This document shows positions 1,378 through 38,986 of a stretch of DNA of 64,000 bases, in pieces. Source of the stretch: Tubulanus polymorphus (lineage: Eukaryota > Nemertea > Palaeonemertea > Tubulaniformes > Tubulanidae). Where the stretch lies: assembly GCF_964204645.1 (NCBI RefSeq), contig NC_134034.1, forward strand, positions 10,659,414 to 10,723,413. Reading direction: 5' to 3'. Position 1 is the first letter of the stretch. The number at the start of each line of letters is the position of its first letter. Below the pieces are notes generated by a model. The model searched no databases. It saw only the letters and a program-made list of their open reading frames with translations, and had not been told where the DNA came from. A program made the translations under genes and the position numbers.

Positions 1378-1431
1378 CTTGTTTTGTTGTAGTTGGTATT
1401 GTCGTTGAGAGAGAATATTCCTCTTCGCCGC
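1378..1431 (-). CDS. Mucin exon 42 (putative): short Thr-rich exon
   Basis: A 54-nt phase 1-1 exon with acceptor TTTTTTGTTCAAAG and a strong GTAAGT donor at 1377. It encodes [18 protein letters not shown]. The composition and phase match exon 41. I found no convincing continuation to the left: acceptors tested in 640-1260 all hit early stops, so the remaining exons are probably outside the window. Confidence 0.5.
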
Positions 1432-4400
1432 CTTTGAACAAAAAATGGTTAAGCATTCACCTTAACGTTATCACTGAATGAGTGAACTTGGTAAATGAGT
1501 ATGGACTGATAATCTGATGTAGAAGATTAATGAATAATCCCACAATTGATGATATTTCGAAGTTTATCGATCGGAAATTTTCGAGATTCATCTTAAATCT
1601 CATCTTCAGGGAAACAGTGATAAAAAATAGTTTACTGTCACGAGAGAAATCCCACAATATATGCAGCCAAAATTGAAAACTTCCAAACTTCTATAGTAAA
1701 ATGATATCTACATTTCGAGCAACATTTCGGCCTAATAGTAAGCCGAAACGTTGCTCGAAATATCATTTTAACCCTTTCAGTGCATATACACCGTAGTGTG
1801 GTGTATGAATCGGTGATGGATTTTGCTAGTACACCGCACTGTGGTGTATTGGTGTTATTAGTTTTTATCTCTATTGAAAGATGGCAGCACCTATCAAACA
1901 TAGTGAAATATTAGTAACTAACGATACACCGCGCCGCGGTGTAGACGCACTATAGAGGTATTCCCGTTATTCGACACACTAGGGCGGAATTTTTCAAAAT
2001 TTTCAAATTCTCTCCAGCACTATAGGGTATTGATTAGTCAGCACTGAAAGGGTTACTATAGAACTTTTCATTTTTGGCTGAATTTATTGTGGGATTTCTC
2101 TCAGTATTCAAATAAACTTTGAAATATCATTGTTATCAGCTGTTCATTAGTGGTTTGACCTATTTGTTCCAAAGATTTCTCGACGTGGCTTGAACGTTAC
2201 CTGGTAATGTTGTCATAGGTGGCCTCGCTGTCTTTTCCATCGGGGTCGTTCTGCCGAGATCAGATTTCGGCGTGGCTGGCAAGGAAAAAACCAAATCAAT
2301 AATAATAACAATATATAATAATAATTACAGGTATTTAAAGTGCCAGTATCCACTGCAAAGTGATCGCTGACACCTGGCTAGTGGGATAGGATATCGAGCA
2401 GCTGCCCGTGAAAATAAATGGGTCTTAAGACTTCGCATGAAGACAGCGACGCTGCTGGCAGCTCTTATATAACGTGGAATAATATTCCACAGGCGTGGGG
2501 CAGCTCTTGAAAAAGCACGGTCTCCAAGCGAGGCTAGCCTACTCCTGGGTTGTGCCAATAGTAAGTTGTCTTTAGATGGCAAGGCACGCGTTTGGGCGTA
2601 CTAAGTGTCAAGTGTGGAGCGGTGTGGCCGAGTGGTTAGAGCGTTCGACTCTGGGAAGCCAGGTCGCGGGTTCGAACCCCGTACATTGCCGTAATGTCCT
2701 CAGGCAAGACACTTATCCTCATTGCCTCTCTCCACCCAGGAGTAAATGGGTACCTGGCCTGATAGATGCCTCCTGAGCGTTTGTTAGCAGCTCGGTGTTA
2801 CTTCTCCCCAGGGAGAGATGACTGATACATGTTAGAGTATAAAATTGGCTGGGGTAATAATATCGAAAAATTTAAAGCGCTCTGAGCAGCCTGGCTGGAT
2901 TTAGCGCTATATAGGACACATATTATATTATTATTCCTGCAGGTATGGTGGAGCGAAACCATTGATACATTTATATGTTAGTAATCAATCATTTTAAAAA
3001 ATAAGAAGGGAGCAAATGGTCGCCCTGTTATGATAAAGTAAAAACTATTTCACTTACTTCCGCACGGACAGTAAAAACGAACCATCATATCGACGCAGTA
3101 AGGCGGATTCGGATTGTTGTCAGCTCGGCAGACATAACCGATCGTACGGTCACACGTATCGTTCAATCCGACCATCGACGATAGCGTCGTATTGAATCCG
3201 TACATCGCGCACTGGATTCGCGACGGCGCGTCGCAGAATTCGTTCGATTCGCGAATCTTATCGATCAGTTCGAATTCACCGACGCCGCTCTGCGGGCGAC
3301 CTGCGCGTCGAGAGAGAGAGACGGAGAATCGTAAACTTACGTATTATTGATTTAGACACAGCGACCAGTTGCACAGTCGTGACTTAAGTCTAAAAGTGGT
3401 CTTAAATCTTAAGTCTGGTCTTAAGGTATTAGATTGGCTTTAGAACTAGGTTGGTCTTAGACTGGTCTTAAGTCTAAAGCCATGACTATGCAACCAGCCC
3501 CAGAAGCCAGTTGCACAGTTAGGTCTTAGTGGTGATAATTTGAAAATTTTTGAAAAATTCCACCCGTGTGTTGTATAATGGGCATGCCAGCTCATTTTGG
3601 TTCTATGACCAATCTAACAACTAAGACCAGTCTGAGCTCATTTTAGTTCTATAACCAATCTAACAACTTAAGACCAGTCTAAACTCATTTCGGTTCTATG
3701 ACCAATCTAACAACTTAAGACCAGTCTAAACTCATTTCGGTTCTATAACCAATCTAACAACTTATGACCAGACTGAGCTCATTTTGGTTCTATAACCAAT
3801 CTATAAGTATTCACGAGTCTAAAAACAAATTGTGTGACAACTGTCCAACTGACCCAAGGATCACAGTTTAGATAAATTAGATCTTTTTCCCAATATTTTC
3901 ATGAAACAATTACCTGTTGATATCCAGTCGGTCCATGTGCAGTTTTTGTGAATGGTGATTGTTGGTTTAGTAGTGATGCCGGGAGTCGTTTGGACCTCGG
4001 TGACTGCAGGAGTCGTCGCTTTCGGGGTCGTCTGCTTACACAAATCATCCTTGACGCATTTGACGCCTGACTCCGTACAGATACACGCAGTACAGTCGTC
4101 TTTATTCCAAGTTGTCAATGGCTGCAATAGAATAATGATGAATCAATGGAAAAGGGATAAAGGGGAATTAACATAGATTCACGGGATTTATCTTTAGCTA
4201 GATAGACTAGTTGTGGTATGGCTGTCTACAAATCCCCTTATGACATCACCATGCATATCCTCATATGAATTATAACACACATCAAAATATGAAATTCTTT
4301 CTGACATCATCAAATAGTCATAGAAGACAATTTGATGATGTCATTGGGGGATTTATAGAGGCGACCATTTTTTCTGGAAGTGTCTAAAGATTTGATGATG

Positions 4401-7400
4401 TCATAGGGGACTTAAAGAGACAGACATCTTTTCTGAAAGTGTCTATAGATTAATTTGATGATGTCATAGGGGGATTTATGGAGGTCGTCTGTTACTCACG
4501 GGAACCTCGTTTCCTGAGTCGTCGATGCACGTGCAATTAGCCTTCGGAACGCACTTTAACGATCGGTCGTAGAACCAGCCGTCGGGACACGAGGAGTCGC
4601 GTTCCTTACAGCCCGGGATACACGTGCTGTTCACGCATAGTCCCATCTCGTGAGACAGAACCAGCGCCGAGTGACATAACCGCGAACATCTATACCGACA
4701 CTCGTCCCAGTCGCTACCTGGCGGGCAAATCGCTGTTTTCAAAAAAAAAAACAAAACAAAAAAGTAGAAATTATGTAAAAGGGGAACGAAATTATTTCGA
4801 CTTGAGTATTCCTGAGATAAATATTAGGAAATAGTTGAAACATTGAATGTTACTTCGATCAAAGAAATATTTCTGAATCGTTTTATTCTCAGTGTGCAGG
4901 GATTTTATAAATTTCATCAATTGGTATTTTCTAATCTCCTCTGATCTTGTTCTTCTGATCCTTAACTCAGACTAATTTTGCTGCTGGTCCCTGGTTTGTG
5001 CGAGTTAGGTTTACCTGTTGTGGTTGGGCGAGTCGTCTGCTCAGGCGTCGTCTGCTCAGGTGGCGTCGTCTGCTCAGGAGTCGTCGTCTGCGCTGGCGTC
5101 GTGGTCGTACCTGACGTAGTCGTCGTCGTAAAGGCCGCGCAGCCGAGCACTTCGAAACGCATCGCGACATTATCACCGCTCCACAGTTCGGGAATCACGC
5201 GCACGTAACGCGCTGTCACGTTCTTGTGAAACAAAACCTCGACGGTGCTCTCCGCGTTCGAGTTTCCGTCGAACATCACCGGTTTACCTTTGTTCTACAA
5301 AAAGAATGCAATAAAAATTTGCACCTGCAAATGTGGTGAAGTTAGCAAATTCTAAGTAATAACAGCAAAAATTGGGATTTGAACCCAACGAGGCTAGACG
5401 CCAGCTAAAACCATTTTACTACTAAAAGCCTAACCCTTCCCTAACCTACCCTATTACCTACAATGCATAACCCTAACCTTGACCCTAAACTCTTATTTTC
5501 TGCAGTTGACAAAACCGCCATTTGGCTTTTTAATGCCTGTCCATGGAAATGAGAAAAAATTGTTCACCGTTGATCTCAAGTGACCACACTGACCTTGAAA
5601 ATGTGGAAAGTCTGTCCATTTTTGCTGGTCATCACATAAAACTTTGTGACGTAAGATCCAAGTCGCGCGTTTCCTTGCAGCTGCAATCCGGATACCGTAG
5701 TCTCGTGGCCGAGATCCACTTGTATCCACTGTTCACCATCGGAGATTCTATAAATAAATGTCCTCCGTGGTTAATAAATTAAAAACATTTCTTATTTCAA
5801 ATAAATCTCGGATGGACAGAAATAGTCTAATCGAAACCGAAGGTGAACAGAATTTTTGTTATCAATTGTCATTATTGTGGGCTTTCTCTACATATTGCAC
5901 AGAGGTTTTCATGCAATAAGATAAAAACCCACTATCTACAGATTAAAAGAATTTAAAAAACAAGAATTTATTTATTCAATCTAAAATATATAGAATACAC
6001 GACGTTTCGATCTCACCCTACAGATCATCGTCAGGTGTGTACGTCGTGTATTCTATATATTTTAGATTGAATAAATAAATTCTCGTTTTTAAATTCTTTT
6101 AATCTGTAGATAGTGGGTTTTTATCTTATTATCCGCTCACCACGTTTGAGTGGTGGTTATCGTTCTATTAGGTTTTCATGCACTTACCCAGGGACCCAGG
6201 ACGAGGCCACAGCTACAGAACTATCAGTTATGATGCGCCCTTTACTCGCTGAGAACGTACTGTTCAGTTCGCTGGAGGCCTTGAATTGACCATCACCGAA
6301 TATTGCTTTGTTACCGAGACCAAGCGGCTCGGTACAATACGCCGGAGTGGGAACTATCTCGGTAGTAGTTTCAGGAACTATCTCGGTAGTAGTTTCGGGA
6401 ACTATCTCGGTAGTAGTTTCGGGAACTATCTCGGAAGTAGTTTCGGGAACTATCTCCGTAGTTGTTTCGGGAACTATCTCGGTAGTTGTTTCGGGAACTA
6501 TCTCGGTAGTAGTTTGAGGAACTATTTCCGCAGTAGTTTGAACTCCTTCAGTAGTTGTTTGAGAAACTGTCTTGGTAGTTGTCGTTCTGGGTCGAACTGT
6601 TTTTTCTTCCTCCGGCGTCACTTCGCCGTTTCCAGTAGGAGCGATAGGAAGCTCGGTTGTCGTAGTCGGCTGTTCGCATGAACAGTAATATCGTATCATG
6701 TAATCGTTTTTACAGCCACCTTTGTTTTGAGAATGAAGACATTTCAACCCGTCGGACACCGTACACGTAGCCACGTCGTTGGTATCCGTGAACGAGATAT
6801 TAGGTTTACCGGCGACCGAACATTCAATATCCGTTATAAAACCTTTCAGACACATCAGTTCTTTCTCTTCCTTGGATATTGATTCCACATCGCCCACACT
6901 TTCAGCTGAAAGATTTCTATTGTGGTTGATATACGGGGACCAGAAATCACATATTTTAGACGTCGTAGTAGTTTCCGTAGACGCAGTTGTTGGAGGCACA
7001 GTTTCAGCAGTTGGAGGAACCGTTTTTGCAGTAGTTGGGGGAACAGTTTCTGCAGTTGTTGGAGGAACAATCTTTTCAGTTGTTGGAGGCACAGTCTTTT
7101 CAGTTGTTGGAGGAACTGTTTCTGCAGTTGTTGGAAGAACAATCTTTTCAGTTGTTGGAGGCTCAGTCTTTTCAGTTGTTGGAGGAACTGTTTCTGCAGT
7201 TGTTGGAGGAACAGTCTTTTCAGTTGTTGGAGGCACAATCTCGGCAGTTGTTGGAGGCACTGTCTTTTCAGTTGTCGGAGGAACTGTTTCTGCAGTTGTT
7301 GGAGGAACAGTCTCTGGAGTTGTTGGAGGAACTGTCTTTTCAGTGGTTGGAGGCACAGTCTCGGCAGTTGTTGGAGGCACAGTCTCGGCAGTTGTTGGAG

Positions 7401-22235: not shown

Positions 22236-22282
<47 letters not shown>

Positions 22283-28200: not shown

Positions 28201-30856
28201 CAGTTTGAATTTGAAATCGAAAATCGAAGTGGCCATCTCCTAGCAGGGTGGGCAGACGTAGAATGTTACAACAGACCTCGCAGAACAGAGCCTCCATGTG
28301 AGGCGCTCGAAAAACCTGAAATGCCCTTTTTTGTGAGTAAATACCCAAGGACACTAAAATACAATTAGTTTTTTGGTAGAGATTGAAGGTGTGCGCTTCC
28401 TCCGAATATTTCATCAAAATGATTAAAAATAACTTAATCGCGAATTGAGGTCGATTCCTGTAATTTCACTTTTTTTCCCCGTCGTGGCGAGGTAGTCAAT
28501 ATATTATACCCCGGATCCTGCCGCCCTCTGGTGAGTATTCTGAATCGACACTTACCTCGGACAGGAAGTCGGATTGAAGCAGCTCGGTTTATTCGCGATG
28601 ACGACGGAGAACGTTTTCAAAAGACAATCGCGCGCGAGAAGATATTCGCACGAACCGTCGAAATGAAACATCTGCGAGTCGAATGTCCGAACATGCGACC
28701 GGCCCCAAACGCTGCACCAACCCGGTCCGGTCACCGGCGCAACTGTCAAATATACATGCATTACAAAAATACAATTGAGCTATATGATCTAGGGCTTGCT
28801 CGGTCTACACTAAGGTGTGTATTACAGAAATTCATCATCAGGGGCCAGGTTTATAGACTGGTATCAACTTTAACAGAGGGGGCCAGTTGCATAGTAGCGG
28901 CTTAGACTTAAGACCAGTCTAAGACCAACTTCGTTCTATAGCCAATCTAACAACTTAAGACCAGTCTCAAGATTTGAGACCACTTTTGGACTTAAGTCAC
29001 GACCGTGCAACTGGGCCCGGGGTTAACTAATTTGAAAATGAATTGAGTTAACCCCTGGGTTAAAGATAATACCATACTATAAATTCGGGCCCAGAAGATA
29101 ATCGTAATTCTACTGATAATTTTACTGAATCGTTGAAGTCATCGAGAATGAGAAAGTCATCATTAGTAACTTATCACAATTTCTGAGGTTATTCACTTGT
29201 GATTGCTAACGAATCATAATTTTACTGAATCATTGAAGTGATTGAGCTAGGTTTTTATTTCAATGTGGTGCGTCCTCGCTTGCCAGGGTTTGATTGCCTC
29301 CCGCCGAAGCTCACGCCGACTCAAACCCCACACGCACTTCCGACATCCCTCTAGGTATTCCAAGTCATCCTTAAACAGGCTTGAGGTTATTCAGAACAAA
29401 GTTGCGATTAGTAACTAATCATAATTTTACTGAATCATTGAAGTTATCGAGCTAAGATTTTATTTCACTGTGGTGCATCCTCGCTTGCCAGGGTTTGACT
29501 GCCTGCCGTCGAACGTAACGTTAACACAAAGCCTGGCTGCAGACCCTTCATTGGTCTATCATTTCATGTCACCCCAAATATGCTTACCAGTAGTGATTAG
29601 TGGAGTTGTGGTAGTTGGGCTGATCGTAGTGGTCGTCGTCGGCAAATCTGAAATCATAAAATCGAAATCTCACATGAATACGGGTGATGTAATTATTGCC
29701 AGGGATCAATTTTGTAGACTGGTATCAACCCAAGGGCTAACATGTAATTTGAAAATGAATTGAGTTATAGCCCCTGGGGCCGGTTGCATGGCTTAAAATT
29801 AAGACCAGTCTAAGACCAACTTAGTTCTATAGCCAATCTAACAATCTAAGACCAGTCTTAAGATTGAAGACTGGCCCCTGGGTAAAAGATAATACCGTAC
29901 CAGTCTATAAAACCGGGCCCAGGGGCCGGTTCCTCAGTTGAGACTTAAGTCCAAAAATGGTCTTAAATTCTAAGACTGGTCTTAAGTTGTTAGATTGGTT
30001 ATAGAACTAAGATGGTCTTAAATTGGTCTTAAGTCTAAGCCATGACAATTGAACCAGGCCCAGGAGTCTCTCGACACAGTTGCACACTGTAATGAGTTAA
30101 CAGTTAAAATAAATCCATTCTCCATCCCTCTATTTTCCCTTACTCTTTTCTCCACGTTTTCAACTTCAAGTTTTCCAAGCCACGCACCTCGGTTCATGTG
30201 CAGGGTGTAAATTAGCCGATCAGAATGAGTCATCGAAAATAGAAATAGCGTTAACTGGAACTTACTGAATTTGCAGTGTCTGATAGTTTCGACGCCCGGA
30301 GTCCAGCGACCGACGAGATCGCAGACGTAAACAAAGTGCGAGCCGGTCGGGCAGAATATTTCGCAGCGAGTTTCCTTCGCGTTGTGTTGGCATTGTATCG
30401 CTCCGAGCAGCGGTGGATCGGGCTTCTTACAGTTCGACAACGCTGTTAAAACATCTCATACGTTATAAATGATTATATACCGACACAGCGACGAACTCAG
30501 GTGGAATTAGATCTTAGGTAGAGAGTCTAGATAATTCAAGATCCATAGAAGCAAAACAGTACAAATCGCATTTTCTAATCAGTAATATATATTTATTAAG
30601 CGAACGTTTTCGAGGTTTAGATAATTAACTACTAGTCAAATATCTTCACTCAGTAATTTAGATTGTGTGTAATTAACTATCTTTATATTGTAATTATCTT
30701 GTCACGCAGTAATTTGAAATTTTGTTTGTAATTAGCTTCATCTTATTCCGTAAAAATACCAGAATGATATGAAAATTTAATCATTTGCGCTATGCATGAA
30801 GAGGGGATAATGTAACTCCTGAAAACGTTCGCTTAATAAATATATATTACTAATTA

Positions 30857-30905
<49 letters not shown>

Positions 30906-33900
30906 CTCATTAGAAAATGAGATTTGTACGGTTTTTGCTTCTATGGATCAGGTGGAATTTTCACATCTTTTTCACATTCTTAAAAATTGGCATTTTTTTT
31001 CATGTAATTTTTTCCATCTAAGTACAATTACGCCGACGACAAGCTCTACCACGCTACTTACGGTATTTACACTGGGGACCTCGGTAATCGGCCGTACAGG
31101 CACAAATATCCGGTTTCACGCAAGTTCCGCCATTTTCGCAGCTTGGACTGCACACAGCTGAGTATAAGAGAAAAAATTCCGTTTAAGATATAATGTCGTC
31201 AGGAAAAGATCATTATTTTGTTGAATTGTTGAAGGTATTGAGAATGCGAAGGTAGTGACTAATCATAATTTTACTGAATTGTTGAAGTTATTGAGAATGA
31301 GAAGATAGTAACTAATCATAATTTTACTGAATTTTTGAAGTATATTGAGAATGCGAAGGTGGTAACTAATCATAATTTTACTGAATTGTTGAAGTTATTG
31401 AGAATGAGAAGGTAGTGACTAACCATAATTTTACTGAATTGTTGAAGTTATTGAGAATGAGAAGATAGTAACTAATCATAATTTTACTGAATTGTTGAAG
31501 TTATTGAGAATGCGAAGGTGGTAACTAATCATAATTTTACTGAATTGTTGAAGTTTATTGAGAATGAGAAGGTAGTGACTAATCATAATTTTACTGAATT
31601 GATGAAGTTATCTAGTATGAGAAGGTAGTAACTAATCATAATTTTACTGAATTGTTGAAGTTATTGAGAATGAGAAGGTAGTGACTAATCATAATTTTAC
31701 TGAATTGTTGAAGTTATTGAGAATGGGAAAGTGATAACTAATCATAATTTTATTGAATTCCTGCAGTAATTCAGAATTAACCGACTAACAGTGGAACTGG
31801 ATCCCTGTGGAACTGTGGATGGAACCAGATCCCTGAATGTGGAACCGGATCCGGGATATCGCTTTCGTTAAATATAGCCTTACGTTTGCAGGGTGGAAAC
31901 TTTTCCGTTTCCAAATATTCTTGACATATAACCTCGATTTCTTTCGCGATGCCAGCTGTAAATTTGTAACCATCTCGGCAGACGCCTTTGCAAGTGCTGC
32001 GCGAATTGAAAATAGAAATAATATGCCATTAAATCGCGATCTCATCGTTGACACGAATCGGTCACAGTATCAGCGATTAAACGATAAACATAAAATCACA
32101 CGCTCATTGAAAGACTAAAAAAGTTTATTCAAATATACTAGAAATATTTCGGGGTGGTTCCTACCACATTTCATCAGTTTAGAAAAAAAAAAAAAATGAA
32201 GTTCAAATATTTCCAGTATTTCAAATAAACTTTTTAGTCTCGCAACAATTTCATGATTCTACATTTATATTGTTGACATTTTCGCTCGATTTTTTTTCAA
32301 ATATTCCAGCAGATATCTTACGCATATTTTGAAGTTCCTTCGCACGTTATGAGGCCGTTGACGGGAGCAGTCACGTTTAGACAGTCGTTCGCTGAAATAG
32401 AAGTCATTTTCATCAATAATATTCAGGCCGGTGCCGAGCTTATTTGAGGGGGAGTTCTATTTCGAGAAAAAGGGACCCTTTTATTGTAAATAGGGGCACT
32501 TTCGTATTGAACAAGGAGGGTAGATCTTAAATACGAAATGACAGGGTACCTGAATCATGGACTCTCCAAGCCTGAATAAATCATTTGAAAATGGATTACC
32601 TTTCATTTTCCAAAAAAAAAAAAATCAAAATTGAATCAAAATTTCCAAAAATCTTGACCCAAAGTTTTTGAAGGGCATTCTGAAATTCTAGGGGGTTCGT
32701 TTGCTATCCCCGAGCCCCCCCCTCGGCGCAGGCCTGGTTTTCGCGTTCTCTTCTACAAATGCGTTTAACGAGAAAATCACGTTTTCTTAAGCGAAAAAAA
32801 AGTCTTCTCAAACTTCTACTCACGCTCGGGAAAACCTTTTATCGGTGGCGGAGCTGAAAAATCGAAAATTTCAAAGAAATTTATTTCAGCTTTTACCATT
32901 TTTAATTCAAATCTTTACGAAAACTCTAAGCGCGTACTTACGAATCATTGGCGAGGCCCTTTTTTGTCTGAAACGAAAAAAATGAAATTCCTAAAATATT
33001 TTTCGACGCGCCTTCTTAAGAAAAAAAAAGGAGCAACGCGGACATTTCTAGGACTCGAAGTGCAAAATATCAGGTGCCACTTGAGACGATGGTTTATTTG
33101 TCTTGATATGAATTTTGAAAACGTCTTCGCTTATCGCCGGGTTTTATCGCGGTGAGGACTTTTTGAGTAAACAGAACGTCGACGTATGTTGGTTAAGACT
33201 AAAACACGCGCGTAGGCGTCTATATGTATTAACGCCCTTTGTGTAATTAAAACATGACATTTCAAACACTCTCTTGTGACTATTTCAACGACGAGTTGAA
33301 AATTACTGAAATTGAGTTTCTGCAGACAAGTGTGTCTGTATTACAACTGCAGAAAATACCGTGATAAGAATGAAATTGCAAAAAGGTTTTGAAAATGGCT
33401 CATAGAATTGAGTCTAAACGTCACTACTCTCTTAGTTTTAAAAATGGCTCATAGAATTGAGTGTAAACGTCACTACTCTCTTAGTTTTAAAAATGGCTCA
33501 TAGAATTGAGTCTAAACGTCACTACTCTCTTAGTTTTGAAAATGGCTCGTAGAATCGAGTCTAAACGTCACTACTCTCTTAGTTTTATAAATGGCTCATA
33601 GAATTGAGTCTAAACGTCACTACTCTCCTAGTTTTGAAAATGGCTCATAGAATTGAGTCTAAACGTCACTACTCTCTTAGTTTTAAAAATGGCTCATAGA
33701 ATTGAGTCTAAACGTCACTACTCTCCTAGTTTTGAAAATGGCTCATAGAATTGAGTCTAAACGTCACTACTCTCTTAGTTTTGAAAATGGCTCATAGAAT
33801 TGAGTCTAAACGTCACTACTCTCTTAGTTTTAAAAATGGCTCATAGAATTGAGTCTAAACGTCACTACTCTCTTAGTTTTAAAAATGGCTCATAGAATTG

Positions 33901-36395
33901 AGTCTAAACGTCACTACTCTCCTAGTTTTGAAAATGGCTCATAGAATTGAGTCTAAACGTCACTACTCTCTTAGTTTTGAAAATGGCTCATAGAATTGAG
34001 TCTAAACGTCACTACTCTCTTAGTTTTAAAAATGGCTCATAGAATTGAGTCTAAACGTCACTACTCTCTTAGTTTTGAAAATGGCTCATAGAATTGAGTC
34101 TAAACGTCACTACTCTCTTAGTTTTAAAAATGGCTCATAGAATTGAGTCTAAACGTCACTACTCTCTAAGTTTTTGAAAATGTCTCATAGAATTGAGTCT
34201 AAACTCTCTTAGTTTTTTAAAATGGCTCAAAGAATCGAGTCTAAACGTCACTACTCTCTTAGTTTTGAAAATGGCTCATAGAATTGAGTCTAAAAGTCAC
34301 TACTGTCTTAGTTTCGAAAATGACTCATAGAATTGAGTCTAAATGTCACTACTCCCTAAGTTATTGAAAATAGCTCATAGAATTGAGGCTAAATGTCGCT
34401 ACTCTCTAAGTTTAATAGTTTTAACACGACTTTATTGTAATAGTCATCTTTCAGGAATATAGTCATCTTTCAGGAATACATTTCGAAGGTTTAAGATCCC
34501 CTTCGAAAATTCGAATTCTCTGAGTACGGCACGCTTTTCCGAAAGTTTAACTTCGACATCTACTAACAAAATATAGCAACCACAATTGCCACTGACGGCC
34601 TCGAAATCATATCTCGAAGTCAAGACGATAAAATATATTTCCCTAAAAACATAACCATAAAATTCTTCTCCAATTCTTGTCATTCAGTTTATATCTCTAG
34701 ATTAGTGTCATCGGCTATGAAATTTCCACTAATCAAGTATAATCTTTTTCATGCGGGGAGGTGGAGTTCAATTTCAGACACCATTCATAGTTTCGAAGAG
34801 ATAATTTCGACCGATAAACGGAATTACGCGCATGGTTTAACGAGTATTTTATCTACTACGACCGTATATACTAGCACCTGTCGTTTATATAGTCGTTATC
34901 TCGACGAACGACGATTAAACCAGACCAAAAGTCGAATCGTAAAAATTTAAAAAGTTTCATGTTACACGTTCCTGATCGTGAAGTCAGAATGAAAATATAA
35001 AATACGAAACGTTTCCCAGAGCTGTTTGAACATGTTCCCGGTTTCCGACCTCTAAAAAATGCTATCGGTAAAAAATTCAATATTTTCAGTAACGTGTCAT
35101 TTAAATATGAAAGAAAATGTTCAAATTAATCAGTTATCAACAGTAAGAGCCTCAGTAACATATTTCATATTTCTGTTCAAATTTATCAGTAATCAACAGT
35201 AAGACCCTCAGTAACATCTTTCATATTTCTGTTCAAATTTATCAGTAATCAACAGTAAGATCCTCAGTAACATGTTTCATATTTCTGTTCAAATTAATCA
35301 GTAATCAACAGTAAGACCCTCAGTAACATCTTTCATATTTCTGTTCAAATTAATCAGTAATCAACAGTAAAACCCTCAGTAACATCTTTCATGTTTCTGT
35401 TCAAATTAATCAGTAATCAACAGTAAAACCCTCAGTAACATCGTTCATATTTCTGTTCAAATTTATCAGTAATCAACAGTAAGACCTTCAGTAACATCTT
35501 TCATATTTTTGTTCAAATTAATCAGTAATCAACAGTAAGACCCTCAGTAACATCTTTCATATTTCTGTTCAAATTAATCAGTAATCAACGGTAAGACCCT
35601 CAGTAACATCTTTCATATTTCTGTTCAAATTAATCAGTAATCAACAGTAAAACCCTCAGTAACATCTTTCATGTTTCTGTTCAAATTAATCAGTAATCAA
35701 CAGTAAAACCCTCAGTAACATCGTTCATATTTCTGTTCAAATTTATCAGTAATCAACAGTAAGACCTTCAGTAACATCTTTCATATTTTTGTTCAAATTA
35801 ATCAGTAATCAACAGTAAGACCCTCAGTAACATCTTTCATATTTCTGTTCAAATTAATCAGTAATCAACAGTAGGACCCTCAGTAATATCTTTCATATTT
35901 CTGTTCAATGACTTGTTACAACTAGGATCCACCATTGATAAGTCTTGAACTAATGAGCAATTGAACCTTTTTTTTTAGGAAGAAGAGTGTTTAAATCAGA
36001 CCAGGGTCATGGCCTTGCCTTGTCTTGCTTTGTCCCAGACATGCACGATGTTTTCCCTAACTCGATCTGCTACGAAACCAATCAATAAACACAGTCAAAT
36101 ACGTAAAGACATAGACAAAAACTGTTTGATTATACATGCGATCCAGCAATCTTAACAAATTTCCCTGACTTTCAGTTTTTTTTTTACAAAATTCCCCAAA
36201 TATTCCCTAACTCTTTTTAAGGAAAGGAAATTTCCCAGATTTCCAGGTAAGCGGCCGCCACTCTGGCGATGACTCAAAGCCTCGAAACAAATAAATTCAC
36301 ACCTACCTGCCGGATACGCGCGCCGCTGCAAGCTCCGTCGACGACAACGCGCAAAGAAAACCGGCGAGCAAAAAACTGGCAAATTTGACGTCCAT
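1378..36395 (-). CDS. Large secreted gel-forming-mucin-like gene with VWD-C8-TIL, WxxW and discoidin domains (3' partial)
   Basis: I joined 41 coding exons: 36395-36307, 32967-32942, 32853-32824, 32391-32322, 31996-31884, 31157-31062, 30442-30266, 29647-29588, 28742-28556, 27934-27805, 27464-27242, 26524-26412, 25965-25797, 25234-25003, 24406-24175, 23303-23208, 22137-21834, 21269-21105, 20715-20478, 19659-19366, 19239-19004, 18327-18089, 17332-17219, 17109-16941, 16341-16226, 15954-15773, 15075-14899, 14190-13994, 13878-11825, 11729-11525, 10392-10061, 9649-9505, 8728-8057, 7469-6188, 5747-5594, 5294-5015, 4732-4500, 4121-3914, 3300-3058, 2275-2201 and 1431-1378. All 40 junctions have AG/GT borders and preserve frame, giving about 3,470 residues with the end missing. 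VWD-C8-TIL repeats plus Pro/Thr arrays and WxxW domains are the hallmark of polymeric mucins. The discoidin domains recall hemolectin/hemocytin and SCO-spondin. Role inferred: extracellular mucus or clotting polymer. The two most 3' exons are the least certain. Confidence 0.88.
1643..2101. mobile_element. Foldback element interrupted by a MITE
   Basis: Outer arms GAGAAATCCCACAATA and the inverse near 2090-2101 (TTGTGGGATTTCTC), with inner matching arms (CAGCCAAAATTGAAAACTTC against its inverse near 2060-2080). The TTAA MITE at 1772-2052 sits inside it. A small palindrome at about 1710-1765 (TTTCGAGCAACATTTCGGC and its inverse) lies within the left half. Confidence 0.6.
1772..2052 (+). mobile_element. 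TTAA-flanked piggyBac-like MITE, copy 1
   Basis: 281 bp, starting CCCTTTCAGTGC and ending GCACTGAAAGGG, flanked by TTAA and the near-match TTAC. TTAA target site and CCC/GGG ends are features of piggyBac-type non-autonomous elements. It is nested in a larger foldback element (1643-2101). Confidence 0.75.
2201..2275 (-). CDS. Mucin exon 41 (putative): Thr/Pro spacer
   Basis: A 75-nt phase 1-1 open exon with acceptor TTTTCCTTGCCAG at 2276 and donor CAG then GTAACG at 2200. It encodes a Thr/Pro-rich segment ([12 protein letters not shown], then MTTLP). The frame fits the exon before it. The upstream intron contains a LINE 3' end only a few bases from the acceptor. The donor is not ideal, hence moderate confidence. 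Confidence 0.6.
2290..2582 (-). mobile_element. LINE 3' end fragment (CR1/L2-like reverse transcriptase tail)
   Basis: The minus-strand reading frame has the C-terminal motif of non-LTR retrotransposon polyproteins: [20 protein letters not shown] followed by [11 protein letters not shown]. It ends in a stop and an (ATT)n-type tail at about 2290-2330. The rest of the element is missing, a typical 5' truncation. It sits in the intron between mucin exons 40 and 41. Confidence 0.75.
2618..2945 (+). mobile_element. tRNA-derived SINE
   Basis: The head is tRNA-like, with A box TGGCCGAGTGG and B box GGTTCGAACCC spaced as in a tRNA promoter. A central domain with GCAAGACACTTATCC follows, and the tail TTTAGCGCTATATAGGACAC runs into (ATT)n. 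The tail resembles those at 40560 and 51830. About 330 bp, close to full length. A functional tRNA gene is ruled out by the poor acceptor stem and the SINE body. Confidence 0.8.
2620..2692 (+). other. tRNA-like head of the SINE (internal Pol III promoter)
   Basis: Pol III A box and B box are both near consensus. The 5' and 3' ends do not pair into a clean 7-bp acceptor stem and no CCA-ready end is seen. I call it the SINE promoter and not a tRNA gene. Confidence 0.65.
3058..4121 (-). CDS. Mucin exons 39-40: VWC-like stub, Thr spacer and WxxW domain 7
   Basis: Exon 39 (4121-3914) encodes [13 protein letters not shown], a Thr/Pro spacer and the domain start [10 protein letters not shown]. Exon 40 (3300-3058) encodes [36 protein letters not shown] and [13 protein letters not shown]. 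This is the most divergent WxxW domain, but it has the WTDW motif and the C-terminal R.YC.C pattern. The intron interrupts it earlier than in WxxW 1 and 3. The intron holds a foldback element and a 47-bp array. Confidence 0.85.
3362..3501. mobile_element. CTTAAG foldback element, copy 1
   Basis: Inverted arms ACCAGTTGCACAGTCGTGAC and GCCATGACTATGCAACCAG, with internal arms rich in CTTAAGTC, GGTCTTAGACTGG and similar. It is directly followed by the 47-bp array made from its inner segment. Confidence 0.7.
3560..3815 (+). repeat. Degenerate 47-bp tandem array
   Basis: About five units of AGACCAGTCTAAACTCATTT then GGTTCTATGACCAATCTAAC. The unit is the inner segment of the adjacent CTTAAG foldback element. 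Confidence 0.7.
4240..4485 (+). repeat. Degenerate GATGATGTCATAGGGG repeat
   Basis: Three to four copies of TTTGATGATGTCATAGGGG with a partly conserved 65-70 bp unit including CATCTTTTCTGAAAGTGTCT. Related to 9770-10045, 22570-22720 and the 81-bp array at 50195. Confidence 0.6.
4500..4732 (-). CDS. Mucin exon 38: C-terminal TIL module
   Basis: A 233-nt exon encodes [40 protein letters not shown] and [17 protein letters not shown]. This is a TIL-type module (CPPGxxWxEC...C...C, CxPGC). The acceptor follows a T-rich run and the donor is GTGAGT at 4499. Confidence 0.85.
5015..5747 (-). CDS. Mucin exons 36-37: F5/8 type C domain 2, C-terminal part, plus Thr-rich tail
   Basis: Exons 5747-5594 and 5294-5015 complete discoidin domain 2: [47 protein letters not shown] and [14 protein letters not shown], ending MRFEVLGC. 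These are the canonical WIQVDLG, S.DG, F.GN and ARYIRI-P...LR.E..GC motifs. After the last Cys comes a Thr/Pro/Gln spacer (units like TTTPEQ). Exon 37 ends in phase 1. Confidence 0.92.
5915..6172. mobile_element. Long palindromic foldback element, copy B
   Basis: Same arms and centre as copy A. It ends only about 15 bp from the coding end of mucin exon 35 (6188), just inside the intron from the donor site. Confidence 0.75.
6188..7469 (-). CDS. Mucin exon 35: Pro/Thr arrays, WxxW domain 6 and start of discoidin 2
   Basis: A 1,282-nt exon. The first array is of [16 protein letters not shown] units. WxxW 6 follows ([34 protein letters not shown]), then a second array of TTTEIVPE units, and then the discoidin start ([25 protein letters not shown]). 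As in WxxW 2 the motif ends in Tyr (WSPY). The donor GTAAGT at 6187-6182 lies about 10 bp from a foldback element. The antisense strand is also open across the arrays, but that is an effect of the repeat composition. Confidence 0.92.
7630..7915 (-). repeat. 49-bp tandem array, inverse orientation
   Basis: About five units of AAACTAAGAGAGTAGTGACG, TTTAGACTCAATTC and TATGAGCCATTTTC. This is the inverse complement of the large array at 33385-34420. Confidence 0.8.
8057..8728 (-). CDS. Mucin exon 34: WxxW domains 4 and 5
   Basis: A 672-nt phase 1-1 exon carries two complete, intronless WxxW domains separated by a short Thr spacer. Domain 4 has [30 protein letters not shown] and [12 protein letters not shown]. 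Domain 5 has [26 protein letters not shown] and [13 protein letters not shown]. Both keep the second Trp (WSPW, WTAW). The symmetric phase makes the exon a likely duplication cassette. Confidence 0.92.
8789..9078 (+). mobile_element. piggyBac-like MITE, copy 2 (diverged)
   Basis: Begins CCCTTTCAGTGC and ends CCGAAGGG, followed by TTAA. The body matches the other copies with several changes. Intron between mucin exons 33 and 34. Confidence 0.65.
9167..9447 (+). mobile_element. piggyBac-like MITE, copy 3 (intact)
   Basis: 281 bp with perfect TTAA on both sides (9163-9166 and 9448-9451). It has three internal near-palindromes of the form ACACCGCAGTGCGGTGT. Only 88 bp from copy 2, in the same orientation. 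Confidence 0.8.
9505..10392 (-). CDS. Mucin exons 32-33: F5/8 type C (discoidin) domain 1
   Basis: Exons 10392-10061 and 9649-9505 encode a discoidin domain: [49 protein letters not shown] and [10 protein letters not shown], then [27 protein letters not shown] and LRFDLLIC. The W-I-x-V-x-Y/L, V.G..TRGR and VFxGNND motifs are diagnostic. Such domains bind phospholipid, glycan or collagen in other proteins; the ligand here is unknown. Confidence 0.88.
9770..10045 (+). repeat. Degenerate GATGATGTCATAGGGG repeat, second site
   Basis: Four units with TTTGATG, TCATAGG and GCAGCCATCTTT motifs in the intron between mucin exons 32 and 33. Strongly diverged. Confidence 0.55.
10455..10738 (+). mobile_element. 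piggyBac-like MITE, copy 4
   Basis: Same ends and body; left flank TTAG and right flank TTAA. In the intron between mucin exons 31 and 32. Confidence 0.75.
10745..11010 (+). repeat. Dispersed repeat with CACAGTCAAATACGTAA core, copy 1
   Basis: Shares GATCTGCT, CAATCAATGGACACAGTCAA, ATACGTAAAAC and the end GATTTCCAGGTGAGTG with 17570-18000 and 36000-36250. Confidence 0.55.
11140..11395. mobile_element. CTTAAG foldback elements, copies 2
   Basis: A half copy at 11140-11250 is followed by a full copy at 11250-11393 with ends GGGGCCGGTTCCATAGTC and CTATGGAACTGGCCCC. Confidence 0.7.
11525..11729 (-). CDS. Mucin exon 31: WxxW domain 3, C-terminal part
   Basis: A 205-nt exon, phase 0 in, encodes [31 protein letters not shown] and [12 protein letters not shown]. 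This completes the domain begun at the end of exon 30. The donor is GTATGT at 11524. The WxxW motif of this domain (WTPW) is intact. Confidence 0.92.
11825..13878 (-). CDS. Mucin exon 30: giant Pro/Thr repeat exon with WxxW domain 2 and the start of WxxW 3
   Basis: A single 2,054-nt exon, open throughout. It has a Pro/Thr array of about 8-residue units ([24 protein letters not shown]), then a complete WxxW domain ([40 protein letters not shown]), a longer second array, and the first part of WxxW 3 ([14 protein letters not shown]). The arrays are 24-bp minisatellites at DNA level and would be densely O-glycosylated. In WxxW 2 the second Trp is Tyr (WIRY). The donor GAG then GTAAAC is at 11824. 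Confidence 0.92.
13994..15075 (-). CDS. Mucin exons 28-29: WxxW domain 1
   Basis: Exons 15075-14899 and 14190-13994. The first encodes [16 protein letters not shown], a Thr-rich spacer and the domain start [16 protein letters not shown]. The second encodes [23 protein letters not shown] and [12 protein letters not shown]. This is the Mucin2_WxxW (CYS domain) pattern: WxxW near the N-terminus, FC...I..V.C, G..C, D.E....C.C. The WTKW motif is a potential C-mannosylation site. The domain is split by a phase-2 intron that contains a nested pair of MITEs. Confidence 0.9.
14275..14792 (-). mobile_element. piggyBac-like MITE, copy 5, interrupted and 3'-truncated
   Basis: Inverted orientation (starts CCCTATCAGTGCTGAC after TTAA). 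It is split by copy 6 and resumes after 14722 with the palindrome-bearing half. Its far terminus is lost. Confidence 0.65.
14469..14718 (+). mobile_element. piggyBac-like MITE, copy 6, nested in copy 5
   Basis: Flanked by TTAA at 14465-14468 and 14719-14722. About 250 bp; one internal palindromic block is missing. The nesting gives relative age: copy 6 is younger than copy 5. Confidence 0.75.
15773..16341 (-). CDS. Mucin exons 26-27: Cys-rich TIL-like module
   Basis: Exons 16341-16226 and 15954-15773 encode [20 protein letters not shown] and [15 protein letters not shown], then [37 protein letters not shown] and CPPCYIC. This matches the TIL plus VWC-like stub that follows D3 in mucins. It ends in phase 2, completing the last Cys with the WxxW-1 exon. 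Confidence 0.85.
16428..16520. mobile_element. GGACCCAGTT foldback element, diverged copy
   Basis: Starts GGACCCAGTTCCACAGTTGT and ends with TCCTGGAACTC. Intron after mucin exon 25. Confidence 0.5.
16941..17332 (-). CDS. Mucin exons 24-25: third C8 domain
   Basis: Exons 17332-17219 and 17109-16941 encode the third C8: [69 protein letters not shown] and SWRHQGLC. The conserved W and the terminal Cys are present. The gene context (after VWD3) is as expected. Confidence 0.92.
17570..18000 (+). repeat. Dispersed repeat with CACAGTCAAATACGTAA core, two copies in tandem
   Basis: The segment GACTCGATCTGCTAAGAATC, TGATCAATTAACACAATCAA and ATACGTAAGACATTGACGG occurs twice (17630 and 17820). In the intron between mucin exons 23 and 24. 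Confidence 0.55.
18089..19239 (-). CDS. Mucin exons 22-23: third VWD domain
   Basis: Exons 19239-19004 and 18327-18089 encode VWD3: [46 protein letters not shown], then [20 protein letters not shown] and [19 protein letters not shown]. The first Cys of CGLCG is replaced by Tyr. It has one intron in the middle instead of the two seen in VWD1 and VWD2. Confidence 0.93.
18380..18800 (+). repeat. Degenerate repeat of about 60 bp (GGATAACTTTGATACC)
   Basis: About seven diverged units with GGATAACTTTGATACCCAGT, CTATAAAACCGGG and GGTTAAGGATTTATCC. Resembles the ends of foldback elements near 28850 and 29890. Intron between mucin exons 22 and 23. Confidence 0.6.
19366..19659 (-). CDS. Mucin exon 21: third TIL module
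   Basis: The 294-nt exon starts [10 protein letters not shown] (the TILa/VWC end of the previous module). It then has [37 protein letters not shown] and [16 protein letters not shown]. Cys spacing is that of TIL followed by TILa. It stands between C8-2/TIL-2 and VWD3, so two TIL units separate assemblies 2 and 3. That recalls the D2-D'-D3 layout of VWF and mucins, where D' is a TIL-E unit without its own VWD; the parallel is inference. Confidence 0.9.
20070..20420 (+). repeat. 40-bp minisatellite (about 9 units)
   Basis: Unit GATAGAAGCGGCCGGTAGAG followed by AGTTTGTAATCTGTAAACCT, with GGGGCC and GCGGCC variants in blocks. In the intron just after mucin exon 20. A single related copy is near 25420-25570. 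Confidence 0.88.
20478..20715 (-). CDS. Mucin exon 20: second TIL module
   Basis: The 238-nt exon encodes [20 protein letters not shown], then [17 protein letters not shown] and [17 protein letters not shown]. This is the TIL consensus with its TILa tail, and it ends in phase 2 just before the CTC of the next exon. The downstream intron carries a 40-bp minisatellite that begins about 60 bp from the donor. Confidence 0.9.
20990..21100. mobile_element. GGACCCAGTT foldback element, copy in the mucin intron
   Basis: AGGACCCAGTTCCACAGTTG then GAGTTAGAGATAACTCTGAG, with an inverse arm TTAACTCAGAACTGAAC. It ends at the donor region of mucin exon 19 (21105), so it lies against the exon. Confidence 0.6.
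21105..21269 (-). CDS. Mucin exon 19: second C8 domain, C-terminal part
   Basis: A 165-nt phase 1-1 exon encodes [39 protein letters not shown] and a tail with LWRNQVDKC. This completes the C8 domain begun in exon 18. The intron here is in phase 1 and a few residues earlier than in C8-1. Confidence 0.92.
21834..24406 (-). CDS. Mucin exons 16-18: second VWD domain and start of second C8
   Basis: Exons 24406-24175, 23303-23208 and 22137-21834 encode VWD2. It contains [46 protein letters not shown], then ITLGRE and [24 protein letters not shown], and [15 protein letters not shown]. The strand order matches the VWD family exactly, which supports the weakly bordered middle exon (96 nt, donor GTAAAG). 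The first cysteine of the CGLCG motif is replaced by Gln. Exon 18 then starts the second C8 domain ([19 protein letters not shown]). Confidence 0.92.
22195..22565. repeat. (ATT)n microsatellite and AT-rich region, possible non-LTR element tail
   Basis: A long (ATT)n run at about 22227-22290 is followed by AT-rich sequence and a segment around 22390-22560 ending in AAATAAATATTATTATATA. The position of the microsatellite suggests retroelement tails, but no coding motif is present. It lies in a mucin intron. Confidence 0.4.
23461..23768. mobile_element. CTTAAG foldback elements, copies 3 (two in tandem)
   Basis: Two copies start GGCCAGTTGCATAGCC and GTTGGTTGCATAGTC and end in GACTGTG and GACTGCGCAACTGGGCCC. 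The second is followed by MITE copy 7 about 30 bp on. Confidence 0.65.
23798..24078 (+). mobile_element. piggyBac-like MITE, copy 7 (intact)
   Basis: 281 bp with TTAA on both sides, same ends and internal palindromes. In the intron between mucin exons 16 and 17. Confidence 0.8.
24410..24530 (-). mobile_element. LINE reverse-transcriptase fragment abutting a mucin splice acceptor
   Basis: The minus-strand frame reads [18 protein letters not shown], similar to the GDRAFSVAAPRLWNSLP motif of CR1/L2-type LINE polyproteins. The fragment runs into the TCTCTATTTTCAG acceptor of mucin exon 16 (24407). No other part of the element was found. Confidence 0.5.
24797..24938. mobile_element. CTTAAG foldback element, copy 4
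   Basis: GGGGCCGGTTGTATAGTCAT at the left and CACGACTGTGCAACTGGCC at the right. In the intron between mucin exons 15 and 16. Confidence 0.7.
25003..25234 (-). CDS. Mucin exon 15: first TIL/TILa module
   Basis: A 232-nt exon encodes a trypsin-inhibitor-like module: [18 protein letters not shown], then [11 protein letters not shown] and [16 protein letters not shown]. CPxGxxYxxCxxxCxxTC followed by CxxGCxCPxG is the TIL consensus. The end, with the next exon, forms the CNRCVC motif of the TILa/VWC-like extension. The donor GTCAGT at 25002 is slightly atypical but keeps frame. Confidence 0.9.
25797..26524 (-). CDS. Mucin exons 13-14: first C8 domain
   Basis: Exons 26524-26412 and 25965-25797 follow VWD1 and encode a C8 domain. 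It opens [20 protein letters not shown], continues with [16 protein letters not shown] and [13 protein letters not shown], and ends in VDWRTDKIC. The pattern F..C..D.C with a later C.C.SLAAYA..C and W....C is the C8 signature. The intron lies just before VVDSTPYF, in phase 0. Confidence 0.92.
26018..26350 (+). repeat. 39-bp satellite family, mucin-intron array
   Basis: Diverged units of CCAGTTCCACAGTTGTGTGG with GTTTAATTTGACTCTGGAT. Lies in the intron after mucin exon 13. Inverse orientation to the arrays at 41 kb, 48 kb and 61 kb. Confidence 0.8.
26917..27070. mobile_element. Foldback element with CCCACAATCG ends
   Basis: Left arm AAAATCCCACAATCGCTG and right arm CAACGATTGTGGGATTTTAC; inner arms around ATACTAGAAATATCTA. 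A related element is at 32090-32270. In a mucin intron. Confidence 0.65.
27242..28742 (-). CDS. Mucin exons 10-12: first VWD domain
   Basis: Exons 28742-28556, 27934-27805 and 27464-27242 encode a complete VWD domain. It begins [20 protein letters not shown], matching the C-x-x-W/G-D/R-x-H-x-x-T-F-D start, and continues FDGSCEYLL. The middle exon carries the beta-strand region ending [10 protein letters not shown]. The end has the hallmark CGLCGNFNG followed by GDDFRLPNG. This is the only one of the three VWD domains that keeps the complete CGLCG motif, which is linked to disulfide assembly in VWF and mucins. Confidence 0.93.
27485..27680 (+). repeat. 53-bp repeat, short array
   Basis: Three diverged units with TAATCATAATTTTACTGAA and GTTGAAGTCATC. 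Same family as 31205-31770. It begins about 20 bp from mucin exon 12. Confidence 0.7.
28840..29095. mobile_element. CTTAAG foldback element, copy 5, inside a second foldback
   Basis: GGGGGCCAGTTGCATAGTAG to GACCGTGCAACTGGGCCC at about 28878-29018. It is flanked by halves of another foldback type (GGTTTATAGACTGGTATC at 28850 and its inverse near 29075). Confidence 0.6.
29095..29455 (+). repeat. 53-bp repeat units, scattered
   Basis: Units at 29100-29240 and 29400-29455, separated by and followed by a duplicated segment (TTGCCAGGGTTTGA near 29280 and 29485). Confidence 0.6.
29588..29647 (-). CDS. Mucin exon 9: short Thr/Pro linker
   Basis: A 60-nt phase 1-1 exon encodes 20 residues, mostly threonine with proline and serine. 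It is a likely O-glycosylated spacer between the N-terminal CCP-EGF-CCP head and the first VWD domain. The donor is GTAAGC and the acceptor is TTTCAG. Confidence 0.75.
29775..30062. mobile_element. CTTAAG foldback elements, copies 6 and 7
   Basis: GGGGCCGGTTGCATGGC at about 29777, and a second at 29922-30062 with GGGGCCGGTTCCTCAGTTG and CATGACAATTGAACCAGGCC. The left and right flanks again carry the CAGTCTATAAAACCGGGCCC half-element. Confidence 0.6.
30266..30442 (-). CDS. Mucin exon 8: second CCP-like module
   Basis: A 177-nt phase 1-1 exon encodes a Cys-rich module. It starts [15 protein letters not shown], has [15 protein letters not shown] in the middle and ends [13 protein letters not shown]. 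The PP..GAI.C start and the GRW tryptophan before the last cysteine are typical of CCP (sushi) modules. The acceptor at 30443 and the GTAAGT donor at 30265 are strong. Confidence 0.75.
30539..30951. mobile_element. MITE with terminal inverted repeats of about 85 bp
   Basis: The left end ATCCATAGAAGCAAAACAGT, with TTTATTAAGCGAACGTTTTC further in, is mirrored at the right by GAAAACGTTCGCTTAATAAA and GGTTTTTGCTTCTATGGAT. A (TA)n run at 30858-30904 lies inside the right arm. No coding capacity. In a mucin intron. Confidence 0.7.
31062..31157 (-). CDS. Mucin exon 7: EGF-like module
   Basis: A 96-nt symmetric phase 1-1 exon encodes one EGF-like repeat. It contains [17 protein letters not shown] followed by [11 protein letters not shown], with the six-cysteine spacing and the CxNGGTC and YRGPxC motifs. 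A single-exon, phase 1-1 EGF cassette is the usual shufflable form. It carries no calcium-binding D-x-D/E-N signature at its start. Confidence 0.85.
31205..31770 (+). repeat. 53-bp tandem array (about 10 units)
   Basis: Unit TGACTAATCATAATTTTACT, GAATTGTTGAAGTTATTGAG and AATGAGAAGGTAG. Shorter arrays of the same unit occur in other mucin introns at about 27485-27680, 29095-29240 and 29400-29450. Confidence 0.88.
31884..32391 (-). CDS. Mucin exons 5-6: CCP/sushi-like module
   Basis: Exon 5 (32391-32322) and exon 6 (31996-31884) join in phase 2. Exon 5 encodes [16 protein letters not shown], with the PVNG..C pattern of a CCP (sushi) half. Exon 6 encodes [13 protein letters not shown] and ends in EKFPPC. 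The spacing of C-NG-C-Y-C-GY-C fits a divergent CCP module. Splitting a CCP across a phase-2 intron is common in that family. CCP modules bind proteins at the cell surface or in complement-like systems; a specific ligand cannot be inferred. Confidence 0.7.
32090..32270. mobile_element. Foldback element related to 26917-27070
   Basis: AAAATCACACGCTCATTG on the left and CAACAATTTCATGATTCTAC on the right, with inner arms AAAAAGTTTATTCAAATA and its inverse, and a poly(A) run in the middle. Degenerate relative to the other copy. Confidence 0.55.
32824..32967 (-). CDS. Mucin exons 3-4: two micro-exons encoding a Pro-rich linker
   Basis: Exon 3 (32967-32942) is 26 nt and exon 4 (32853-32824) is 30 nt. 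Both have TTTCAG-type acceptors and GTAAGT or GTGAGT donors. They keep frame between the signal peptide and the first CCP module and encode a short basic and proline-rich linker (about [13 protein letters not shown], then IKGFPE). Such small exons would be missed by most gene finders. The frame match on both sides is the main support. Confidence 0.65.
33385..34420 (+). repeat. 49-bp tandem array (about 21 units)
   Basis: Unit AATGGCTCATAGAATTGAGT followed by CTAAACGTCACTACTCTCTT and AGTTTT. The centre is nearly perfect and the right edge degenerates. It fills part of the first long mucin intron (32967 to 36307). Confidence 0.88.
35085..35912 (+). repeat. 56-bp tandem array with 280-bp higher-order repeat
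   Basis: About 14 units of CAGTAACATCTTTCATATTT, CTGTTCAAATTAATCAGTAA and TCAACAGTAAGACCCT. Variant units recur with a 280-bp (5 x 56) spacing, for example the CATGTTTCTG variant near 35390 and 35670. Same mucin intron as the 49-bp array. Confidence 0.85.
36000..36250 (+). repeat. Dispersed repeat with CACAGTCAAATACGTAA core, copy 4
   Basis: Contains ACTCGATCTGCTACGAAACC, AACACAGTCAAATACGTAAA and TTTCCAGGTAAGCGGCC. It lies just inside the first mucin intron. Confidence 0.5.
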
Positions 36396-38818: not shown

Positions 38819-38986
38819 TCAACAACGTTCGAAAACGCGATATAAATCGGGTAAATTAGCGATTTGTAAAACGCTCGAGTCGTCTGCGCAACGTCGCGGT
38901 GGTTGTAAAATAGATCGGAACGCCGGGAATATGACGTGCTCCACCGTCCAACGCCAGTCGTGAGAATCGACTTCATCTACTTCACA
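38819..38986 (-). CDS. MLH1: MLH1 terminal exon
   Basis: Encodes [17 protein letters not shown], a variable stretch, and [17 protein letters not shown], then TGA at 38821-38819. The C-terminal FERC is invariant in MLH1 and takes part in MutL-alpha endonuclease function in other species. The acceptor CTAATTTCAG is at 38987. The gene therefore ends about 1.5 kb upstream of the mucin promoter region, in head-to-tail order. Confidence 0.95.
   Translation of the reverse strand, partial: CEVDEVDSHDWRWTVEHVIFPAFRSILQPPRRCADDSSVLQIANLPDLYRVFERC

Follow-up and report, generated by a model that had tools for sequence, protein, structure and literature searches.

A 64,000-nucleotide stretch of the Tubulanus polymorphus genome (267,791,593 bases in 77 contigs), spanning C10 (NC_134034.1):10659414-10723413 and hereafter called the window, very probably carries one single gene, whose product is probably a gel-forming mucin that would be secreted, polymerise through disulfides and make up mucus or an adhesive polymer. 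The window part of the gene encodes a signal peptide, a six-Cys module, an EGF module, a second six-Cys module, a D1-D2-D'-D3 block and a tail of WxxW, PTS, F5/8C and TIL modules. The sequence shows this domain order, conserved multimer cysteines and an exon-intron structure shared with its relatives. Among the features of gel-forming mucins it possesses the D block, the D3 cysteines, a repeat domain and WxxW domains, and it looks like a mucin-like build combined with hemolectin-type surface-binding modules.

Gene structure and genomic context

The gene was rebuilt from genomic sequence alone using our own splice and coding-potential program, trained on the obvious exons of this same gene, so that its coding scores are partly circular. 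The window holds a chain of 39 exons running from 36395 to 1378 on the minus strand, in agreement with the coordinates and strand given in an earlier note on this DNA, and its 3,450 stop-free residues form the one long spliced reading frame that the note had described. The gene is cut by the window edge and extends 9.2 kb further left in the same genome, a remainder that the note had overlooked. The 30 kb of left flank examined contain 11 further in-frame exons; the first is a Cys-rich exon that begins at window position 35 and is cut by the edge (1..35, minus strand), and ten more lie in the flank, with the stop codon at C10:10650194. The whole model comprises 50 exons over 45,615 bases (45.6 kb) and encodes 4,076 aa with no internal stops. 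Two minus-strand exons near the edge, both from splice and ORF prediction, are linkers, one Pro/Thr-rich (2201..2275) and one at 1378..1431, after which the gene continues to the left. A separate single-exon, minus-strand ORF of 335 aa that matches 7tm_1 (E 3.9e-8) also lies in the left flank, around -23520 to -24524 on the window scale.

Splice junctions are GT-AG and in frame at 48 of 49 positions in the whole model and at 37 of 38 in the window model; frame-keeping is imposed by the program, so the junction frame is no independent evidence. The note had counted 40 junctions, all keeping frame; the window model has 38, and the statement holds for 37 of them and not for the first. The good GT donor of exon 1, after 36307 (phase 2), does not agree in phase with exon 32391-32322, and joining the two requires either a GC donor at 36311 (phase 1) or skipping of exon 32391-32322, which would leave half of the first CCP-like module. 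A search for a micro-exon that could bridge this junction gave only three weak candidates.

Without hints, the program predicted one minus-strand chain of 36 exons, upstream MLH1 exons included. Compared with the final 39 window exons, 28 were exact, 3 had one differing end and 8 were absent: both halves of the first CCP-like module, the second such module, the first VWD exon, the D' exon, one C8 exon each of D1 and D3, and the middle F5/8C exon. Its only plus-strand prediction was a low-scoring chain of 4 exons and 116 residues. Most of the remaining exons came from a further run, given hints and less strict splice limits, and manual placement was used for exons 1 and 2, the acceptor of D' and the exons that form the second F5/8C domain. 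Several exon choices were rejected and replaced: exon 28239-28182 with donor 27297 (by exon 28742-28556 with donor 27242), acceptor 19710 for the D' exon (by 19659), and exon 5593-5568 with donor 6261 (by exon 5747-5594 with donor 6188). Pfam scans covered the protein in pieces, with exon 1, the PTS arrays and some linkers outside them.

The upstream neighbour, on the same strand, is the DNA mismatch repair gene MLH1 (38819-44551), identified by a Pfam DNA_mis_repair match in exon 44551-44313 and with a further probable exon at 43530-43371. Its end, at a VFERC that we take to be the MLH1 C-terminus, is near 38819, which leaves about 2.4 kb to the start of the mucin gene. The segment 36473-36307 was considered as a continuation of MLH1 and rejected. 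Introns and intergenic DNA in the window contain many minisatellites with units of 39-56 bp (3591-3803, 20062-20424, 31209-31777, 33386-34413, 35118-35908, 47894-49582 and 59798-60410), and a 39-bp family recurs at 26005, 41711, 47894, 56836 and 60874.

N-terminal head

Exon 1 (36307..36395, minus strand) encodes 29 signal-peptide-like residues according to the ORF and splice reading, in line with the start at 36395 proposed before. It is followed, on the same strand, by a six-Cys module at 31884..32391 (exons 32391-32322 and 31996-31884; Cys spacing 12-8-3-17-11), an EGF module at 31062..31157, a second six-Cys module at 30266..30442 (Cys spacing 12-8-3-9-15) and a Thr-rich linker exon at 29588..29647 (splice and ORF prediction). 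The EGF module, which the note had also recognised, gives a marginal match just over the cut-off (PF07974, E 1.1e-4) and PDB matches to WIF1, its best solved relative, and to fibrillin.

The earlier identification of the two six-Cys modules as CCP domains was not upheld. Neither has any Pfam match at E<=10, Sushi included, and a PDB search with the head at the same limit listed 18 sequences, which are EGF-type matches such as WIF1 with no sushi protein among them. Both modules have six cysteines with the first three spacings identical (12-8-3), as a result of which the CCP-like label is one of cysteine pattern only. Six-cysteine sushi domains occur in selectins.

D1-D2-D'-D3 block

Three VWD-C8-TIL units were found on the minus strand, as the note had proposed, with three VWD and three C8 matches by Pfam and a TIL that is firm in D1 and D2 and weaker in D3. 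D1 (25003..28742; VWD 2.6e-35, C8 2.4e-18, TIL 1.4e-8) carries a CGLC motif. In D2 (20478..24406; VWD 2.4e-32, C8 3.2e-14, TIL 9.2e-10), QGLC replaces CGLC and a GDPH motif lies at residue 574 of the model; in many VWD domains this motif is a site of cleavage at its Asp-Pro bond (PMC10880436). The pair of CGLC in D1 and QGLC in D2 is the same as that printed for MUC2 in the alignment. Between D2 and D3, the D' unit (TIL'), overlooked in the note, shares an exon with the end of the D2 unit (19366..19659; TIL 1e-11; hand-chosen acceptor 19659), and VWC matches beside it are at the cut-off (28.5 bits vs 27.6, and 25.8 in another scan). D3 (15773..19239) has a VWD in two stretches (1.7e-25), a C8 (3e-19) and a TIL that is the weaker of the two TIL stretches in the Pfam scan of D'-D3 and clearer in the VWF/MUC5AC alignment.

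The block aligns in one collinear stretch with VWF 34-1228 (E 7.5e-171) and in one stretch with MUC2 15-1193 (E 3.7e-168). Among PDB sequences, the top score for the D region belongs to FCGBP, a repeat-rich protein (E 1.7e-193) that aligned in nine repeated stretches and not in one collinear run. FCGBP also came first in the alignment search used to print the motifs, and MUC5AC and VWF came first in the search used for the D3 cysteines.

Both multimer cysteines are present in D3: Cys stands opposite each of VWF C1099 and C1142, whose positions were counted off from the numbering printed with the alignment. A different VWF construct in that alignment output carries alanine at precisely these two positions. 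We take the VWF pair to be equivalent to C1088 and C1130 of MUC2. In that mucin, inter-chain bonds are formed by C1088 (C8-3) and C1130 (TIL-3) (PMC6739602). The 3,450 residues of the window part contain no furin-type site (RX[KR]R), and D1-D2 is therefore likely to remain joined to the rest of the protein, as it does in mucins.

None of the 108 VWD matches in the genome search lies in the mucin gene past D3; the gene therefore has no D4 unit by this search and falls outside the MUC2/MUC5AC/MUC5B subgroup. Elsewhere in the genome, ten VWD exons of near-equal score (profile 8-151 or 10-151) are spread over about 1 megabase at C4:19.93-20.94 Mb and seem to stem from a different VWD gene that has recently expanded in tandem. 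A protein predicted at C5:4.098-4.128 Mb seems, by eye, to alternate VWD units with ShKT-like Cys motifs and has a Pro/Thr stretch near its end.

WxxW domains and Pro/Thr repeats

CysD/WxxW domains are found in several, not all, gel-forming mucins. The seven proposed in the note all appeared as Mucin2_WxxW matches above the curated cut-off, and the W-x-x-W motif is kept in five of them. The first (13994..15075, exons 15075-14899 and 14190-13994; PF13330 5.5e-8) lies directly after D3, separated by a short Thr linker. MUC2 requires the domain in this position, CysD1, for filaments at pH 6.2 (PMC9169620).

The remaining six lie further along the minus strand. WxxW 2 (13124..13375; PF13330 and motif check) has WIRY in place of the lost motif. 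WxxW 3 (11525..11915, start approximate; PF13330 4.5e-21) is formed by the end of exon 13878-11825 and exon 11729-11525. WxxW 4 (8406..8657; E 3.3e-19) and WxxW 5 (8067..8321; E 1.5e-11) are followed by WxxW 6 (6682..6942; PF13330 and motif check), which has lost the motif to WSPY, and by WxxW 7 (3058..3300; PF13330), which starts in exon 4121-3914. Genome-wide, at least seven Mucin2_WxxW matches were obtained in 267.8 Mb, with all eight candidates scored; all seven matches found fall in the mucin gene, and a wide spread of WxxW in this genome was rejected.

The Pro/Thr arrays described in the note were recovered as tandem repeats by a tandem repeat search, with a 24-bp unit that corresponds to 8 residues. 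They lie on the minus strand at 13394..13848 (24-bp period), 11970..13050 (several arrays with 24/48/240-bp periods), 6983..7449 (24/72-bp periods) and 6349..6539 (24-bp period). Exon 13878-11825 alone encodes 685 aa, WxxW 2 counted in, of which 201 are Thr and 105 are Pro.

F5/8C domains and C-terminal region

Two F5/8C (discoidin) domains are present, as proposed, both on the minus strand. The first (9505..10392; PF00754 2.8e-12) is formed by exons 10392-10061 and 9649-9505. The second (5100..6345, domain ends approximate; PF00754 8.3e-24, profile positions 1-127 of 127) spans the end of exon 7469-6188, exon 5747-5594 and the start of exon 5294-5015; the middle exon and donor 6188 were hand-chosen. 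Next, at 3914..4732, come a TIL domain missed in the note (exon 4732-4500; TIL 3.2e-6) and, in exon 4121-3914, a stretch labelled VWC-like by eye with a Thr linker.

The exons of the left flank contain VWC-like stretches below the Pfam cut-off, one LDLa (E 9.6e-6) and a cystine-knot-like end. No Pfam model matched this end; its PDB matches are weak (norrin E 0.011, VWF CK E 0.012), and a CxCC is aligned to VWF CK.

Proposed function

The conserved D3 cysteines and the knot-like end are most simply read as those of a polymer of the VWF/MUC2 type, and the same two features, at the level of sequence, support the note's suggestion that the product polymerises. The C-terminal cystine knot would first link chains in pairs at their tails, after which the two D3 cysteines would connect these dimers at their heads; D1-D2-D' and the first WxxW domain would give the filament its organisation. 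The Pro/Thr arrays would bear O-glycans and swell to form a gel. The F5/8C modules, together with the EGF, the LDLa and the six-Cys head, may bind glycans or surfaces, and such binding modules would make the product mucus or an adhesive polymer rather than plain slime. We infer that the gene gives one mRNA and that its product is secreted, glycosylated and polymerised; we likewise only infer its ligands and tissue. The gene offers a test of whether polymerisation uses the same two disulfide joints as in MUC2 and VWF.

Two other roles for such a polymer were considered. That the product serves in temporary adhesion, as Sfp1 does in sea stars and Mlig-ap1 in flatworms, is somewhat unlikely. Sfp1 holds discoidin, VWD, C8 and EGF domains (PMC7037938) and hemolectin/SCO-spondin-like proteins are described from limpet pedal mucus (PMC7333891); however, no feature of the sequence favours adhesion over barrier mucus, and the scanned pieces gave no match to the C-type lectin domain that is listed for both Sfp1 and Mlig-ap1 (PMC7037938). 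It is rather doubtful that the gene represents the hemolectin/hemocytin of this animal, in which case wandering or body-fluid cells would make a polymer, with mucin-like inserts, that clots and traps bacteria. Such a role would be consistent with the F5/8C, LDLa, VWC-like stretches and knot-like end that follow the D region, and fly hemolymph without the hemolectin discoidin domain reportedly fails to aggregate bacteria (PMC4015701). The long PTS arrays and the seven WxxW domains are nevertheless mucin traits, and a second relative of the gene, at C10:11.83-11.86 Mb and without a WxxW match, fits the hemolectin role equally well. The preferred reading is a gel-forming mucin.

Relatives on the same chromosome

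Two other D1-D2-D'-D3 genes are located on the same contig, about 0.7 and 1.1 Mb from the mucin gene. Both were predicted by the same program with no hand edits. The D region of the first paralog (C10:11.42-11.457 Mb, plus strand) is 46.2% identical to that of the mucin over 983 aligned residues and keeps 100 of 114 cysteines; 13 of 18 introns are in common in place and phase (within 3 columns), vs 0.56 expected by chance. Identities at codon positions 1, 2 and 3 are 0.584, 0.671 and 0.374 over the 983 codons, which points to constraint or selection at the protein level. The second relative (C10:11.827-11.858 Mb), which begins with an EGF array and has D1-D3 and, by eye, an LDLa-like module, is 33.8% identical over 969 residues and has 8 of 18 introns in common vs 0.54 expected. 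Both models are rough; in that of the first paralog, part of the repeat region was read in an incorrect frame.

Past its D region, the first paralog has nine F5/8C-like stretches among Thr/Ser repeats of the GTSASTGSTTS type; they were detected by tblastn with the first F5/8C domain of the mucin as query, and some may be parts of one domain. It ends in VWC-like exons and a cystine knot 36.9% identical to that of the mucin gene. Neither relative has a WxxW match (at E<=0.001 in the first paralog). The six-Cys/EGF head used as a query gave no match on the first paralog, whose exon 1 is outside the model, and one match on the second relative, over EGF. A retroelement-like ORF stretch was noticed by eye between exons of the first paralog, near 11434766-11436400. 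Just before this paralog, at C10:11.406-11.420 Mb, six very similar tandem ORFs of 360-385 aa look, by eye, like rhodopsin-type GPCRs.

Since the first paralog has the same order, from the D region through F5/8C to the knot, the tail of the mucin belongs with its D region. The VWD and F5/8C matches and the VWF alignment also cross exon borders of the mucin gene, and these findings, together with the common introns and the separate MLH1, favour the note's view of one gene and not a chain of neighbours. That the model has joined two or three neighbouring genes is very improbable: several splice sites score weakly, 8 of 39 window exons are missing from the unhinted prediction and the chain is read from genomic sequence, but the introns in common with both relatives (13/18 and 8/18), the paralog's order from D region to knot, the zero internal stops over 4,076 codons and the separate end of MLH1 upstream speak against it, and a fusion of neighbouring genes was rejected on these grounds.

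It can be speculated, though we consider it unlikely, that the mucin gene keeps an ancestral build predating the split of gel-forming mucins and hemolectin-type clotting polymers. If so, one polymer would have had both mucin parts (PTS, WxxW after D3) and surface-binding parts (F5/8C, LDLa, EGF), and the three-gene family would show PTS with WxxW and PTS with F5/8C being swapped on one D1-D2-D'-D3/cystine-knot frame. The gene provides a sequence-level link between barrier mucins and clotting or adhesive polymers of the VWF/hemolectin type, which are usually described apart, and comparison with its two chromosomal neighbours of the same family allows the exchange of domains on a conserved polymer frame to be traced.

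Comparison with known systems

The note had held that the modules of this protein usually occur in separate families. This is overstated: VWD and discoidin are known together in hemolectin/hemocytin and Sfp1, and VWD, C8, TIL and LDLa in a limpet mucus protein. For F5/8C, WxxW and PTS in one gene, we met no description in the parts of the literature searched, without claiming that none is published. Hemolectin/hemocytin of insects join VWD units to discoidin domains, as the mucin gene does (PMC3193375, PMC4015701), and a 2011 comparison reported that, of the species it covered, only Drosophila has a member in which VWD and F5/8C occur together (PMC3193375). The mucin gene appears to differ in its PTS arrays and seven WxxW domains. 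Sea star Sfp1 similarly unites its shared domains within one large protein, and differs in a C-type lectin domain and four discoidin domains; the part of its description consulted does not mention WxxW or PTS (PMC7037938). The limpet pedal-mucus protein P-vulgata_3 resembles the mucin in having C8 x2, VWD x3, TIL x2 and LDLa; it has five LDLa, and neither F5/8C nor WxxW figures in the part of its description consulted, where it is likened to SCO-spondin, hemolectin/hemocytin and mucin (PMC7333891). VWD-TIL-C8-PTS proteins are described from placozoans (PMC11452194), and the full-length mucins listed in a sea anemone survey belong to transmembrane and mucin-like types (PMC9080433).

Identity as VWF or SCO-spondin was rejected. 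The scanned pieces, which leave exon 1, the PTS arrays and some linkers outside, gave no Pfam match for VWA, TSP1, EMI or C-type lectin. SCO-spondin combines VWD, LDLa, F5/8C and a cystine knot with TSP1 repeats and an EMI head, and the mucin gene differs from it in having no TSP1 or EMI match in these pieces. Von Willebrand factor is similar in the D1-D2-D'-D3 order and the knot-like end; unlike it, the mucin gene has PTS and WxxW, no VWA match and, in the window part, no furin-type site. Unlike MUC2, MUC5AC and MUC5B, the mucin gene adds F5/8C, LDLa, EGF and a six-Cys head and is without a D4 unit, whereas it resembles them in the D1-D2-D'-D3 order, the D3 multimer cysteines, the CGLC/QGLC motifs (MUC2), the WxxW domain after D3, the PTS arrays and the knot-like end.
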